Shown: positions 7,627-11,434 of the stretch, one piece after another
How positions within the stretch are numbered: the stretch's first letter is position 1
Layout of the letters: each line of letters begins with the position of its first letter
Assembly: GCA_903839465.1 (NCBI GenBank)
Contig: CAIMCI010000147.1
Coordinates: 1 to 46,302 of the forward strand
Reading direction: 5' to 3'
Source: an uncultured Pseudomonadota bacterium
GTDB taxonomy: Bacteria > Pseudomonadota > Gammaproteobacteria > Steroidobacterales > Steroidobacteraceae
DNA length: 46,302 bases
Position numbers and translations under genes: made by a program
Notes under the pieces: model-generated
The model's database searches: none
What the model saw: only the letters and a program-made list of their open reading frames with translations
Told to the model about the DNA's origin: nothing

Positions 7627-7916
7627 TCGACGGCATCATCGCTCTCTACATATTCATGCTGGCCGGGTTTACCGGCTACGAAGTCATCGCCAAGGTGCCG
7701 GTCATCCTGCACACGCCGCTGATGTCGGGCTCGAACTTCGTGCACGGCATCGTGCTCGTCGGCGCCATGGTCGCGCTGTTCAATGCCTCCAATCACCTGG
7801 AGCAGGCCATCGGCTTCATTGGCGTGGTGATGGCCGCGGGCAATGCGGTCGGCGGCTACGTCGTCACCGAACGCATGCTCGAGATGTTCAAGGCCAGCGG
7901 GAGCAAGAAGTCATGA
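7623..7916 (+). CDS. pntAB: NAD(P) transhydrogenase subunit alpha part 2, membrane domain
   Basis: This 97-residue protein is the short membrane piece of the alpha subunit (part of domain II). Three hydrophobic stretches are visible: near residues 5-20, 32-55 (with the GSNFVHGIVLVGAMVAL stretch) and 60-85. The split of alpha into two genes is a normal arrangement in many bacteria, in contrast to the single pntA of E. coli, and is not a frameshift: both genes start with their own ATG. It overlaps pntAA and pntB by four bases each (ATGA at 7623-7626 and 7913-7916), consistent with equal expression of the complex. Confidence 0.93.
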   Translation: MIDGIIALYIFMLAGFTGYEVIAKVPVILHTPLMSGSNFVHGIVLVGAMVALFNASNHLEQAIGFIGVVMAAGNAVGGYVVTERMLEMFKASGSKKS

Positions 7917-9334
7917 ACTTCATGAACCCCGCCCTGGCCCATGGCCTGATCAACGCCGCCTACCTTCTGGTGGCCTTCCTGTTCATCTACGGCCTGAAGC
8001 GCATGAGCGCCCCGTCGACGGCGCGCAGCGGCATCGTCTGGGCCGGCTACGGCATGGTGATCGCCACGCTGGTCACGTTCCTGGCGCTGTCTGGCACGCC
8101 GGACCCGGCCGGCCTCCTGTCCACCAACGTCGTCCTGGCCGTCGTCGCGATCGCGATCGGCGGCCTGATCGCCGCCTATACCGGGCGCAAAGTGGCGATG
8201 ACCGACATGCCGCAGATGATCGCGCTGTACAACGGCTTCGGTGGCGGTGCCGCCGCCGCCATCGCCGCGGTCGAGCTCTACGCCGGCGAGAACCGCGGCC
8301 CGACGCTGGGCGCGCTGGCCGTGCTCGGCGGCCTGATCGGCGCCGTGTCCTTCTCGGGCTCGATCATCGCCTTCGGCAAGCTGCAGGGACTCATCAAGAA
8401 GAGCTTCCGCTTCGGCGGCCAGCAGGTCGTCAACGTCGTCATCCTCGGCGCCGCCGTCGTGCTCGGCGCGATGATTGCTTCCGGGGTGCACGGCGAGGCG
8501 CTGTACGTGACGCTGTTCTTCGTCGCCGCGCTCGTCATCGGCGTGACCATGACGCTGCCGATCGGTGGCGCCGACATGCCGGTCGTGATCTCTCTGTACA
8601 ACGCACTGACCGGCCTCGCCGTCGCCTTCGAGGGCTTCGTGCTCAACAACGCGGCGATGATCATCGCGGGCACGGTGGTCGGCTCGGCCGGCACGCTGCT
8701 CACGCAGCTGATGGCGAAGGCCATGAACAGGTCGCTCGGCAACGTGCTGTTCGCCGGCTTCGGCGAATCGGCCGCGGCGGGCACGACCGCGGTCACGGGC
8801 TCGCAGAAGCCGATCGAGGCGTCGGATGCCGGCGTCATGATGGCCTTCGCGCAGAAGGTCATCGTCGTGCCAGGGTACGGCCTCGCCGTGGCGCAGGCCC
8901 AGCACAAGGTCTGGGAGCTCGCCCAGCTCCTCATCGAGCACGGCGTGACCGTGAAGTTCGCGATCCATCCGGTGGCCGGCCGCATGCCCGGCCACATGAA
9001 CGTCCTCCTGGCGGAAGCCGGCGTTCCCTACGACCTGATCAGCGACCTGGACGAGATCAATGCCGAGTTCGAGACCTGCGACGTGGCGCTCATCATCGGC
9101 GCCAACGACGTGGTCAACCCGGTCGCCCGCAACGACAAGTCGAGCCCCATCTACGGCATGCCGATCCTGAATGCCGACAAGTCGAAGAACGTCATCGTGA
9201 TCAAGCGCGGCCAGGGCCAGGGTTTCTCCGGCATCGAGAACGCGCTGTTCTACCTCGACAACACCCGGATGCTGTACGGCGACGCGCAGGCCGCCCTCAA
9301 CCAGCTCATCCAGGCGGTGAAGACGGTCGGCTGA
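7913..9334 (+). CDS. pntB: NAD(P) transhydrogenase subunit beta
   Basis: This 473-residue subunit supplies most of the proton channel (domain II) and the NADP(H)-binding domain III. The first 270 residues contain about eight to nine hydrophobic helices. The C-terminal domain shows the NADP-binding stretch VPGYGLAVAQAQHKVWEL, followed by VKFAIHPVAGRMPGHMNVLLAEAGVPYD and IIGANDVVNPVARND, all hallmarks of PntB. Length agrees with E. coli PntB (462). It ends the pnt operon. No U-tract terminator reading in the plus direction follows; the hairpin at 9460-9477 has its T-run on the minus strand. Confidence 0.95.
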   Translation: MNFMNPALAHGLINAAYLLVAFLFIYGLKRMSAPSTARSGIVWAGYGMVIATLVTFLALSGTPDPAGLLSTNVVLAVVAIAIGGLIAAYTGRKVAMTDMPQMIALYNGFGGGAAAAIAAVELYAGENRGPTLGALAVLGGLIGAVSFSGSIIAFGKLQGLIKKSFRFGGQQVVNVVILGAAVVLGAMIASGVHGEALYVTLFFVAALVIGVTMTLPIGGADMPVVISLYNALTGLAVAFEGFVLNNAAMIIAGTVVGSAGTLLTQLMAKAMNRSLGNVLFAGFGESAAAGTTAVTGSQKPIEASDAGVMMAFAQKVIVVPGYGLAVAQAQHKVWELAQLLIEHGVTVKFAIHPVAGRMPGHMNVLLAEAGVPYDLISDLDEINAEFETCDVALIIGANDVVNPVARNDKSSPIYGMPILNADKSKNVIVIKRGQGQGFSGIENALFYLDNTRMLYGDAQAALNQLIQAVKTVG

Positions 9335-9450
9335 AGTACCGCGGGGGCCCGGCTGCTGCCGCACGCCGGGCGGCAGACGCCGGACGGACGGCCGGGCGCG
9401 CGATGGGGTCGGCTCGCCGGGCACTGCCCCGCGTCACCCGGCTCGGGGCC

Positions 9451-9477
9451 AAAAAAAAACCCCGAGCAAGCTCGGGG
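9451..9477 (-). terminator. Strong intrinsic terminator, minus strand
   Basis: Read on the minus strand, an eight-base-pair GC-rich stem (CCCCGAGC pairing with GCTCGGGG, 9460-9477) is followed directly by nine T residues (the A-tract 9451-9459 on the plus strand). This is a textbook Rho-independent terminator. It must end a leftward transcript, either from the cyclophilin gene or from an RNA encoded at about 9478-9655, and it also protects against reading into the end of pntB. Confidence 0.85.
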
Positions 9478-9655
9478 CGAAGGGCCCTCCGCTTGACGCG
9501 GAGTGCTAGGGGACGATCCATTGACCAAGGACATCGGCCGGGGCCGGGAACTCTTGAGTCGCAGGTGATGCTAGGGCTTACACGGTTGGGACACCGTGAC
9601 CCAGTGCTCAGTTCCGTCCATTGAGGGACGGATCCGCCGAAAGCGCTGACGTTAA
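9460..9655 (-). ncRNA. Candidate structured non-coding RNA
   Basis: No coding frame explains this stretch. On the minus strand it folds into a series of local hairpins. One is a seven-pair stem TCCGTCC/GGACGGA with loop CTCAAT (about 9612-9631). Others are CACGGT/ACCGTG (about 9581-9598), CTCCGC/GCGGAG (about 9487-9503), and the terminal stem before the T-run. GGCC/GGCC and CAAG/CTTG pairings are also possible in the centre. The words TCAATGGA and CCTAGCA each occur twice in the same order, which suggests two related units. A TTGACT sequence at 9655-9660 just after the cyclophilin stop could be a -35 box, but no good -10 box follows. It could instead be the structured 3' end of the cyclophilin mRNA. 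I do not recognise a known RNA family. Confidence 0.4.
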
Positions 9656-9661
9656 GTCAAC

Positions 9662-10567
9662 TCAGGGCTGCGGGTGCAGGCGCACCGGCAGCGGCGCATT
9701 ACATAAGTCGACACGACCGGCCTTGCTGACGAAGAACGGATCCTCGCGGCGGCGGCGCGCCTCGATGAGCCGCTCGTACTCGGGGGCCGCCGTGTTCAGG
9801 ATCTCGACCGGCACGCGCTCGGCCGGCGGCAGGTCGGCGGCAAGGCGCATGGCGATGATCGACGGCCGTGCCTCGCCGGGCTCGTAGAAGCCCATCTCCG
9901 CGTGGCCGCGCGGCAGCGCCGACAGATGCTCCATGCCGGACAGCACCCGGCCGATCAGCGTCACGTTGCGGTCGAGGTGCCGCGGCGCGTGGCCGATCAC
10001 CACGTACAGCTCCTCGCCGCTGCCGGTATCGGCACCCTCGTCGCGGCCGACACCGACCATCCCGTAGCAGTGCGCGAGCCACATGCGTCCGGCGTGCGGA
10101 TCGCGGGCCACCGGAAAGCCGCGCAGCAGGCCGACCTCGGCGGCATAGACGTCGCCGTCGGCGAGGCGCCGGAACGGCAGCTTCGCATCGACCGGCCGGT
10201 CGAATTCGGCCTTGAGCACGCCGATGCCGGCAGGCAGCGCCCGCTCGCCGTCGTTGTTGCCCCACTGGGTGACGTAATCGTCCTGCACGCGGTTGATGTG
10301 CAGCCCGTCGAAGTACCGGGCCCGCACCAGCCGGCGGACGTTGTCGCGGTGCGCCGGGGCGAAGTCAGCGGCCAGCAGGATGACGACGCGGCCGGTGGCG
10401 AGGTCGAGGTAGAGCGTGTCGTTCGGATCGGGACGCAGCCACGCGGCATCCGGCATCGCGCTCAGGAGGTCGGCGTAGGTGGCCGCCACCGCCGGTGGCG
10501 CGGCGGCGAGGCCGGCCAACACCATCAGGATCAGGGCACCGCGGGCCCGGCGCGCGATCGCTCGCAT
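9662..10567 (-). CDS. Periplasmic cyclophilin-type peptidyl-prolyl isomerase
   Basis: This 301-residue protein has a clear Sec signal: basic RAIARRARG, a hydrophobic core and a likely Ala-x-Ala cut (AVAA) near residue 28. After an N-terminal extension, the cyclophilin fold is recognisable from VVILLAADFAPAHRDNVRRLVRARYFDGLHINRV, then QWGNNDGERAL, and the late ELYVVIGHAPRHLDRNVTLIGRVLSGMEHLSAL, where most family members have the hydrophobic core and the final binding loop. It probably helps fold outer-membrane or periplasmic proteins; an outer-membrane barrel gene lies 43 bases upstream on the same strand. The prolyl-isomerase active-site residues are only partly recognisable, so activity should not be assumed. 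Confidence 0.8.
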   Translation of the reverse strand: MRAIARRARGALILMVLAGLAAAPPAVAATYADLLSAMPDAAWLRPDPNDTLYLDLATGRVVILLAADFAPAHRDNVRRLVRARYFDGLHINRVQDDYVTQWGNNDGERALPAGIGVLKAEFDRPVDAKLPFRRLADGDVYAAEVGLLRGFPVARDPHAGRMWLAHCYGMVGVGRDEGADTGSGEELYVVIGHAPRHLDRNVTLIGRVLSGMEHLSALPRGHAEMGFYEPGEARPSIIAMRLAADLPPAERVPVEILNTAAPEYERLIEARRRREDPFFVSKAGRVDLCNAPLPVRLHPQP

Positions 10568-10609: not shown

Positions 10610-11434
10610 CTAGAAACCGACCCGGGCGGACAGCATGGGACCCGAGGTCTTCAGGTTGAAATAGCCCGTATCGCCGACCTTCAGCGAGTCGACCGACACG
10701 TGGTAGGAACTGTAGCCGATCCCGAGCGTGACGGTCGGGTTCACGCGATAGAGCGCCTGCACGTTCCACAGCGCCGCCGCGCCGCGCACCTTCGAGACGT
10801 TGGCCTTCAGGTAACGCCAGTTCGCTTCGCCGTACCAGTGACTGGACAGTCGCGCCGCGCCGTCCAGGCCGATCAGCGGCACGGGCGCCGAGCGCGCCTC
10901 GTGCTGCTCGGCAAGCCGGGCCGGCACGTTCGCGTCGGCCGCGAACTCCATGCCCTCGATCCCGACCGCGACGCCGAGCGCGACCCGCTCGGTGCGCACC
11001 ACCGAATAGGCGTAGTCGACGCCCTCGAGGCGAACGTCGAGCCGCGAGGAGACGGTCTCCGAGACGTGGTAGAGGTTGTCCTTGAAGTAGACGTCCTTCT
11101 TCAGCACGCCGGTCCCGGAGCGCTCGAAGGGAATGAACAGGTAGTTGGCGCGGATCGTGTGCCGGGGTGCCGGCCTGAACAGCACGTCCAGCCGGCCGAT
11201 CGTTTTCTTCGCCGGCAGGTTGAGGTCGCTTTCGGCATTGATCTCGGTGCCCGGCGCGCCGCTGGTCGCATCCACGCGCAGTCGCGTCGTGCTCGAGCTG
11301 AACGTCAGGTCGGCACCCACCTCGAAGCGGTCGTCGAGAAAATTATCGGGCTTTTCGACGGGCGGGCGGGCGGCCGCACCGGTGGCGGCCAGGACCGCCA
11401 GCACGAGGGCGCAGGGGGGTGCGGATCGGTTCAA
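10610..11434 (-). CDS. Outer-membrane beta-barrel protein of unknown function
   Basis: This 274-residue protein begins with a signal peptide (NRSAPPCALVLAVLAATGAAA, probable cut near residue 22). The rest alternates short amphipathic strands, for example RHTIRANYLFIPF, LDVRLEGVDYAYSVV, HWYGEANWRYLKANV and TVTLGIGYSSYHVSV. It ends in a terminal Phe (LSARVGF), the signal by which the Bam complex recognises barrels. An eight- to ten-stranded barrel is likely. I do not recognise a specific family; a general outer-membrane assembly or porin-like role is possible. It lies upstream of the periplasmic cyclophilin and downstream of the sigma-factor cluster on the same strand. Confidence 0.7.
   Translation of the reverse strand: MNRSAPPCALVLAVLAATGAAARPPVEKPDNFLDDRFEVGADLTFSSSTTRLRVDATSGAPGTEINAESDLNLPAKKTIGRLDVLFRPAPRHTIRANYLFIPFERSGTGVLKKDVYFKDNLYHVSETVSSRLDVRLEGVDYAYSVVRTERVALGVAVGIEGMEFAADANVPARLAEQHEARSAPVPLIGLDGAARLSSHWYGEANWRYLKANVSKVRGAAALWNVQALYRVNPTVTLGIGYSSYHVSVDSLKVGDTGYFNLKTSGPMLSARVGF

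Follow-up and report, generated by a model that had tools for sequence, protein, structure and literature searches.

C-rich RNAs that act at the start sites of mRNAs represent a known kind of mechanism, as in sX13 of Xanthomonas. In the study of sX13, unpaired C-rich stretches in its three loops are described to act on G-rich motifs close to the start codons, whereby protein synthesis is repressed, and the flanks of these G motifs are described there as not conserved (PMC3771888). PEP-CTERM proteins, on the other side of the story told here, are reported to be important for floc formation, and a study of Aquincola describes that transcription of the PEP-CTERM gene pepA is controlled by RpoN (PMC9850573). 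RpoN is a regulator of a PEP-CTERM gene, but it acts by sigma-54 control of transcription and not by RNA pairing. In the open-licence literature of PubMed Central, no report of small-RNA control of PEP-CTERM genes was found, nor one of such control in Steroidobacter, as judged from titles and listings. How does the present locus compare with these systems? It carries a short module on the minus strand, which, with moderate confidence, we take for a C-rich small RNA that ends in an intrinsic terminator and would act in trans by masking the ribosome-binding sites (RBS) of PEP-CTERM mRNAs. By analogy with sX13 and its G-rich motifs, the RNA most likely pairs with these sites and represses the mRNAs. 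Where sX13 has loops, the C run here forms a 5′ single strand that continues into a specific UAGC, and the sX13 model (RF02232, length 115) gives 13.8 bits, with a cut-off of 50, to a copy of the same RNA family at locus L036. Both this family, called here the greB-lemA type, and its regulon appear to be new and undescribed.

The window, that is, the whole stretch of 46,302 nucleotides analysed here, contains 327 gene-free bases between the stop codons of pntB and of a cyclophilin gene (Table 1). We compared this place with the counterparts in the other two genomes of the genus (G001 and G002; the window's own genome is G000), and tblastn on the loci revealed pntB opposite the RNA in all of them. 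The cyclophilin gene has no counterpart at the locus of G002, where the outer-membrane-like gene lies directly upstream of the RNA in the ORF listing of L002. No tRNA or tmRNA was detected in the window. The preliminary description had proposed here a new, stand-alone small RNA of about 190 nucleotides; comparison supports a new small RNA well, but its extent shrinks to a conserved unit of 62–65 nucleotides at the 3′ end. The RNA may perhaps reach about 100 nucleotides when a leader is counted. The minus-strand terminator with nine T residues was described correctly, and consists of a stem (9478-9459) and the U tract behind it.

Table 1. Features of the RNA locus and its neighbours (positions in the window).
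Feature	Position	Strand	Basis or remark
pntB	7913..9334	+	Pfam PF02233, tblastn on loci; convergent with the RNA in G000, G001 and G002
Conserved small-RNA module, copy 'a'	9451..9514	-	R1 match 9452-9514, R2 match 9453-9516
U9 tract	9451..9459	-	Nine A on the + strand; 3′ of the terminator stem
Intrinsic terminator stem-loop	9459..9478	-	Terminator scan
Hairpin P1, GC-A-CUCCGC / GCGGAG-G-GC	9484..9506	-	Pairing in 4 sequences
C-rich seed UCCCCUAGC	9505..9513	-	Unpaired except the last GC (fold)
5′ region, possibly leader and promoter	9515..9640	-	Unsupported as structured RNA
Cyclophilin-type peptidyl-prolyl isomerase	9662..10567	-	Pfam PF00160; same strand, upstream of the RNA
Outer-membrane-like protein	10610..11434	-	Weak TIGR04219 match below cut-off; next upstream gene

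The module is conserved in all three genus genomes, and its shared form can be written as GUCCCCUAGCACUCCGC-loop-GCGGAGGGCCCUUCG-CCCCGAGC-UUGCUCGGGG-U. Its most conserved part is CCCCUAGC, invariant in the four rows of alignment A3 and in two further copies, C292 of G000 and C447 of G002. When the two helices are compared over four copies, all 60 cells pair and two pairs are changed on both sides; in P1, too, all cells are paired in the four sequences, with one pair changed on both sides. On covariation four sequences prove little, as the same is reached by 39 of 500 shuffles when the full structure is taken.

Does the RNA belong to any known family? Failure to match one had already been noted in the preliminary description, and a covariance-model search against Rfam agrees with it, as no family reaches its gathering score in the window, nor in 17 related loci. 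6S RNA (RF00013), which resembles the region first described in its length, had been named as a family to check; it has no gathering match in the window, and the genome's own 6S RNA is on contig C419 (67 bits). The best sub-threshold match in the window is anti-hemB (RF02837; 27.5 of 49.5 bits), much of it terminator. The family copy at L036 likewise stays below the cut-offs of mmgR/suhB (RF00519; 23.7 of 41 bits), SorX (RF02784; 23.5 of 46.6) and anti-hemB (27.0 of 49.5). In the alignments these three resemble our family as short proteobacterial small RNAs with C-rich stretches, a hairpin and a terminator; being below their gathering cut-offs, they were rejected together with the Betaproteobacteria toxic sRNA.

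Relatives of the module were sought by DNA search and by two covariance models. The DNA search of 98 genomes gave matches in four, namely G000 itself, G002 (5.6e-34), G001 (2.5e-15, plus a second place at 6.1e-4) and G014 (9.1e-4), the last of which was discarded as it covers the terminator alone at a locus without the seed. An exact-pattern search of a wider contig collection yielded 18 stretches, 15 of them in records of other organisms. The first covariance model, R1, was built from the window copy and three other genus copies. The window copy scores 90.2 bits with it, as part of R1's own training, and a search of 217 genomes of the taxonomic family gave many weaker matches in other genera; one copy between greB and lemA is matched at 34.8 bits. 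R1 scores alone are no proof of membership, because L040, a terminator without the seed, reaches 32.9 bits. L040 and the other R1 matches that lack CCCCUAGC (L055, L058, L065, L067, L068 and L070) were therefore left out of alignment A4. What remains includes 29 loci that share one RNA, consisting, with few exceptions, of UCCCCU[AGU]GCGGRCUUU, a mostly pyrimidine-rich loop, AAAGUCCGC and the terminator. This widespread copy is found between greB plus a small ORF on one side and lemA on the other: among 45 distinct loci with the RNA, greB is present in 44, an ORF similar to the small one of G000 in 42, and lemA, within the short flanks counted, in 26, a few of the 45 having been retrieved through lemA. 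The small ORF of G000 (L074:1075-1275, plus strand) encodes 67 amino acids without a Pfam match and ends with LRWSRLH, and its kin elsewhere have VLQWxRLH-like ends. In A4, 13 cells are changed on both sides, a number that none of 500 shuffles attains; the same comparison counted by pairs gives four changed on both sides (6/500 shuffles), and counted by pair types it is equalled by 41/500. The hairpin of the greB-lemA type, whose sequence is unlike P1, has two pairs changed on both sides.

The second model, R2, was made from these 29 greB-lemA-type RNAs, all from other genera, and its E-values are rough. At E<=0.01 it has matches in 165 of the 217 family genomes, among which are its 29 training genomes, and these cover 24 of 25 genera. 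Across the order, matches at E<=1e-4 occur in 128 of 396 genomes, and one of them, G300, is outside the taxonomic family; this match (30.5 bits) has CCCCTAGC, the 100 bases read there contain no T tract, and chance is the probable explanation. In G000, R2 gives 50 bits to the genome's own greB-lemA copy, 32.5 bits (E 3.2e-5) to the window copy and 25.4 bits to the C292 copy. As a control, R2 was applied to 85 sources (283 kb), including the seedless matches of R1, and against the 32.5 bits of the window all others, the seven seedless loci among them, reached at most 18.4 bits. The window copy also shows the layout of the family, with unpaired CCCCU[AGU], GC, a hairpin and the terminator, but in place of the family hairpin sequence GCGGRCUU/AAGUCCGC it has CUCCGC/GCGGAG. 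Because the middle hairpin differs from the greB-lemA type, the window copy may be either a divergent paralogue or a convergent sibling, and common descent is likely, not certain. We are confident that a small-RNA family of the greB-lemA type exists, and nearly as confident that common descent makes the window copy a member. G000 then holds three siblings: the greB-lemA copy on C178, the C292 copy, which R1 finds at 49.5 bits, and the window copy. In G001 the greB-lemA copy was not found (L075 is the place upstream of lemA), and both genus-specific copies are present.

If the module is a small RNA with an exposed C-rich strand, what could be its targets? CCCCUAGC complements GCUAGGGG, and the seed is complementary to GCUAGGGGA, which is found before PEP-CTERM-like ORFs. 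The discovery pattern was GCTAGGGG-N3-12-ATG, searched in seven genomes, three of which are the genus genomes. These three contain 12 such places (29 for the reversed control pattern). Six of the 12 start an ORF of at least 150 amino acids, and all six look PEP-CTERM- or VPxP-CTERM-like: the sorting signal is C-terminal or nearly so in L119, L120, L127, L128 and L131 (in L128 as judged by eye alone), and L124 was counted via a PF07589 match that follows in another frame. In the other four genomes, the sole ORF of this size behind the pattern encodes a 276-amino-acid protein in G006. With TAGGGGA-N3-11-ATG there are 43 places (control 37) and 16 ORFs of at least 150 amino acids. Ten of these 16 have a PEP-CTERM match in NCBIfam or Pfam, eight over the curated cut-off; L209 and L212 match below such cut-offs, and L218 is counted through a PF07589 match in another frame (L155). 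Two more, L208 and L223, are PEP-CTERM-like by eye and by text pattern, and are left uncounted as they match no model. The remaining ones are a BBP2_2 outer-membrane beta-barrel (L226:557-1981, minus strand, in G001) and three unrelated proteins (ammonium transporter, STAS/kinase-like and FabH-like). At L218 and L155, both on contig C195 of G000, a PEP-CTERM gene seems to be interrupted, with the RNA site before an ORF of 159 amino acids and the signal downstream in another frame; it could be an assembly error. Judged by the reversed controls (12 vs 29 and 43 vs 37), the site as such shows no excess in these genomes. Only its association with PEP-CTERM genes stands out, not its frequency.

A partly independent check is provided by loci chosen through PF07589, since discovery consisted of the GCTAGGGG pattern and its ORFs. 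The check set covers 30 loci of 35 PF07589 matches, in which PEP-CTERM genes were called by a C-terminal text pattern; those that were truncated, had no ATG or were overlapped by a longer frame were dropped, and 17 were kept. The 67 others with which they are compared are the remaining frames at those loci, in the window and at eight additional loci of the genus, and spurious frames may be among them. TAGGGGA precedes 6 of the 17 PEP-CTERM genes and none of the 67 others (Fisher 3e-5), where L151, one of the six, already belonged to the discovery set and L163 contributes two that are paralogues in tandem. AGGGG is found before nine of the 17 and one of the 67, and AGGAG before one and one; conversely, 11 of the 17 lack TAGGGGA and eight lack AGGGG. 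In an alternative tally of 22 PEP-CTERM rows, duplicates included, AGGGG precedes 10/22 vs 0/28. The predicted pairing energy with the window seed has a median of -12.6 for PEP-CTERM genes and -7.7 for the others (p 1.8e-4; p 5.9e-4 if the first ATG alone is taken), and 2 of 300 permuted seeds do as well. When the motif-bearing targets of G000 and G002 are paired with the three RNAs of the same genome, 8–13 base pairs with -16.5 to -26.9 kcal/mol are predicted. In G001, where the seed is without the 5′ U, several predicted pairings have only about -11 kcal/mol. Several of the targets are tandem paralogues, and those in G001 (C16) may count as one event.

Outside of the genus the picture is different. 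PEP-CTERM genes occur in 119 of the 217 family genomes, and at the loci read in other genera AGGGG precedes 2 of 18 PEP-CTERM genes vs 2 of 31 other ORFs. Because the PEP-CTERM genes read in other genera show no enrichment, the claimed target set is limited to one genus with three genomes, and a G-rich complement at the starts of a coherent gene set, as known from sX13, is found in this genus only. Matches to GCTAGGGGA-N3-11-ATG are present in 84 of the 217 genomes; for the reversed control, the tabulated counts, which were not summed, look higher. Among 30 loci read behind GCTAGGGGA outside the genus, for ORFs of at least 60 amino acids, none is PEP-CTERM, although the family-wide RNA keeps the same seed. 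In three genomes of genus g18 (L244, L245 and L255), an ORF of 145 amino acids directly follows GCTAGGGGA; that of L244 has no Pfam match. We take these ORFs to be ExbD/TolR-like and regard them as a candidate target of the family-wide RNA. It is conceivable, if rather unlikely, that the RNA is a genuine C-rich small RNA of the family whose real targets are others, for example the ancestral set of the greB-lemA copy, and that the PEP-CTERM sites just reflect a shared unusual RBS. The ORFs of g18 speak for it, as does a seed kept in genera where the site is missing from the PEP-CTERM genes read; however, the RNA has, for its most conserved part, an exact 8-mer complement that goes with one small class of genes in the genus with extra copies. 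Weighing these points, we incline to PEP-CTERM mRNAs as the real targets.

For the pairing of this RNA with PEP-CTERM mRNAs, the following course can be proposed. We infer that the module is transcribed and acts by pairing, with repression as the probable effect and with Hfq perhaps having some role. The exposed 5′ seed would pair with GCUAGGGGA at the RBS of mRNAs for PEP-CTERM (exosortase) surface proteins in this genus, the pairing would block the entry of ribosomes, and the output of these proteins would fall together. It seems an evenly balanced question whether the sibling RNAs, at least one ancestral copy and two genus-specific ones, form a dedicated post-transcriptional switch of the exosortase/PEP-CTERM surface proteome, for which genes of the genus acquired an RBS of the GCUAGGGGA type. 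Should the pairing prove real, a single small RNA could tune several surface proteins together, and its regulon could be recognised in a genome by TAGGGGA ahead of start codons. In Rfam, the family-wide RNA would form a new family, and the genus would represent a lineage where a core small RNA seems to have gained copies and a genus-specific regulon.

Might the outer-membrane-like and cyclophilin genes form a transcription unit of which the module is merely the 3′ end and terminator, having no function in trans? In each of the three genus genomes the outer-membrane-like gene lies upstream of the module, in two of them with the cyclophilin gene in between, and in several greB-lemA-type loci the RNA starts directly at the small ORF's stop codon (with a gap of 0 in L048), as a 3′UTR would. 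In addition, a sigma-70-like promoter was not found for the window copy or for its orthologue in G001: the TTGACT remarked upon earlier is indeed present at 9655-9660, but no partner hexamer for it was found in a promoter. On the other hand, the same module exists at unrelated places, and the seed, which is outside the terminator, is among its most conserved parts. One such place is C292 of G000, with its counterpart C447 in G002, where the RNA is on the strand opposite to both neighbour genes. One neighbour encodes a glutathione S-transferase, 73% identical in G002. The other is an ORF of 204 amino acids without a Pfam match, whose plus frame is 65% identical in G002 over 128 amino acids, and the minus frame overlapping it has 35% identity. 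Upstream of the C292 and C447 copies alike, there is a promoter-like TGGACA-17-GATATT, one found in each with 0.2 expected. Because of the opposite-strand neighbours and the shared promoter-like sequence, this sibling is unlikely to be a mere 3′UTR. For the window and greB-lemA copies, an origin as 3′UTR plus processing is equally possible. As an account of the whole, a 3′ end without function in trans is improbable, and a small RNA that pairs with PEP-CTERM mRNAs remains our preferred reading.

The 190-nucleotide, stand-alone multi-hairpin RNA of the preliminary description is very hard to maintain, even though the whole region folds with z scores of -2.77 (9451-9640) to -3.19 (9441-9670) against shuffles and has 80% identity with G002 (134/168 over query 55-221, 3′ module included), since its 5′ part folds no better than shuffles, folds differently in G002, aligns poorly with G001 and is poorly conserved in the paralogues. 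The stability of the whole region is owed mainly to its 3′ end: the module (9452-9514) has a z score of -3.11, whereas 9515-9640, which holds most of the hairpins claimed, has -1.06, with 33 of 200 shuffles at least as stable. The stable hairpins thus go beyond chance in the 3′ module, and in the relatives only this 3′ third (9451-9514) is kept, the 5′ hairpins being not conserved. As an observation, the preliminary description was partly confirmed, being real in part, and its interpretation is partly supported. It had also pointed to two words that occur twice in the region, and both are there, TCAATGGA at 9517-9524 and 9617-9624, and CCTAGCA at 9504-9510 and 9569-9575; as functional repeats they were rejected, being not conserved and only marginally beyond chance. 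Neither copy of TCAATGGA, nor the 5′ copy of CCTAGCA, is found in the closest relative. Of 1000 dinucleotide shuffles, 43 have as many repeated 7-mers, which is marginal, and 249 have some repeated 8-mer.
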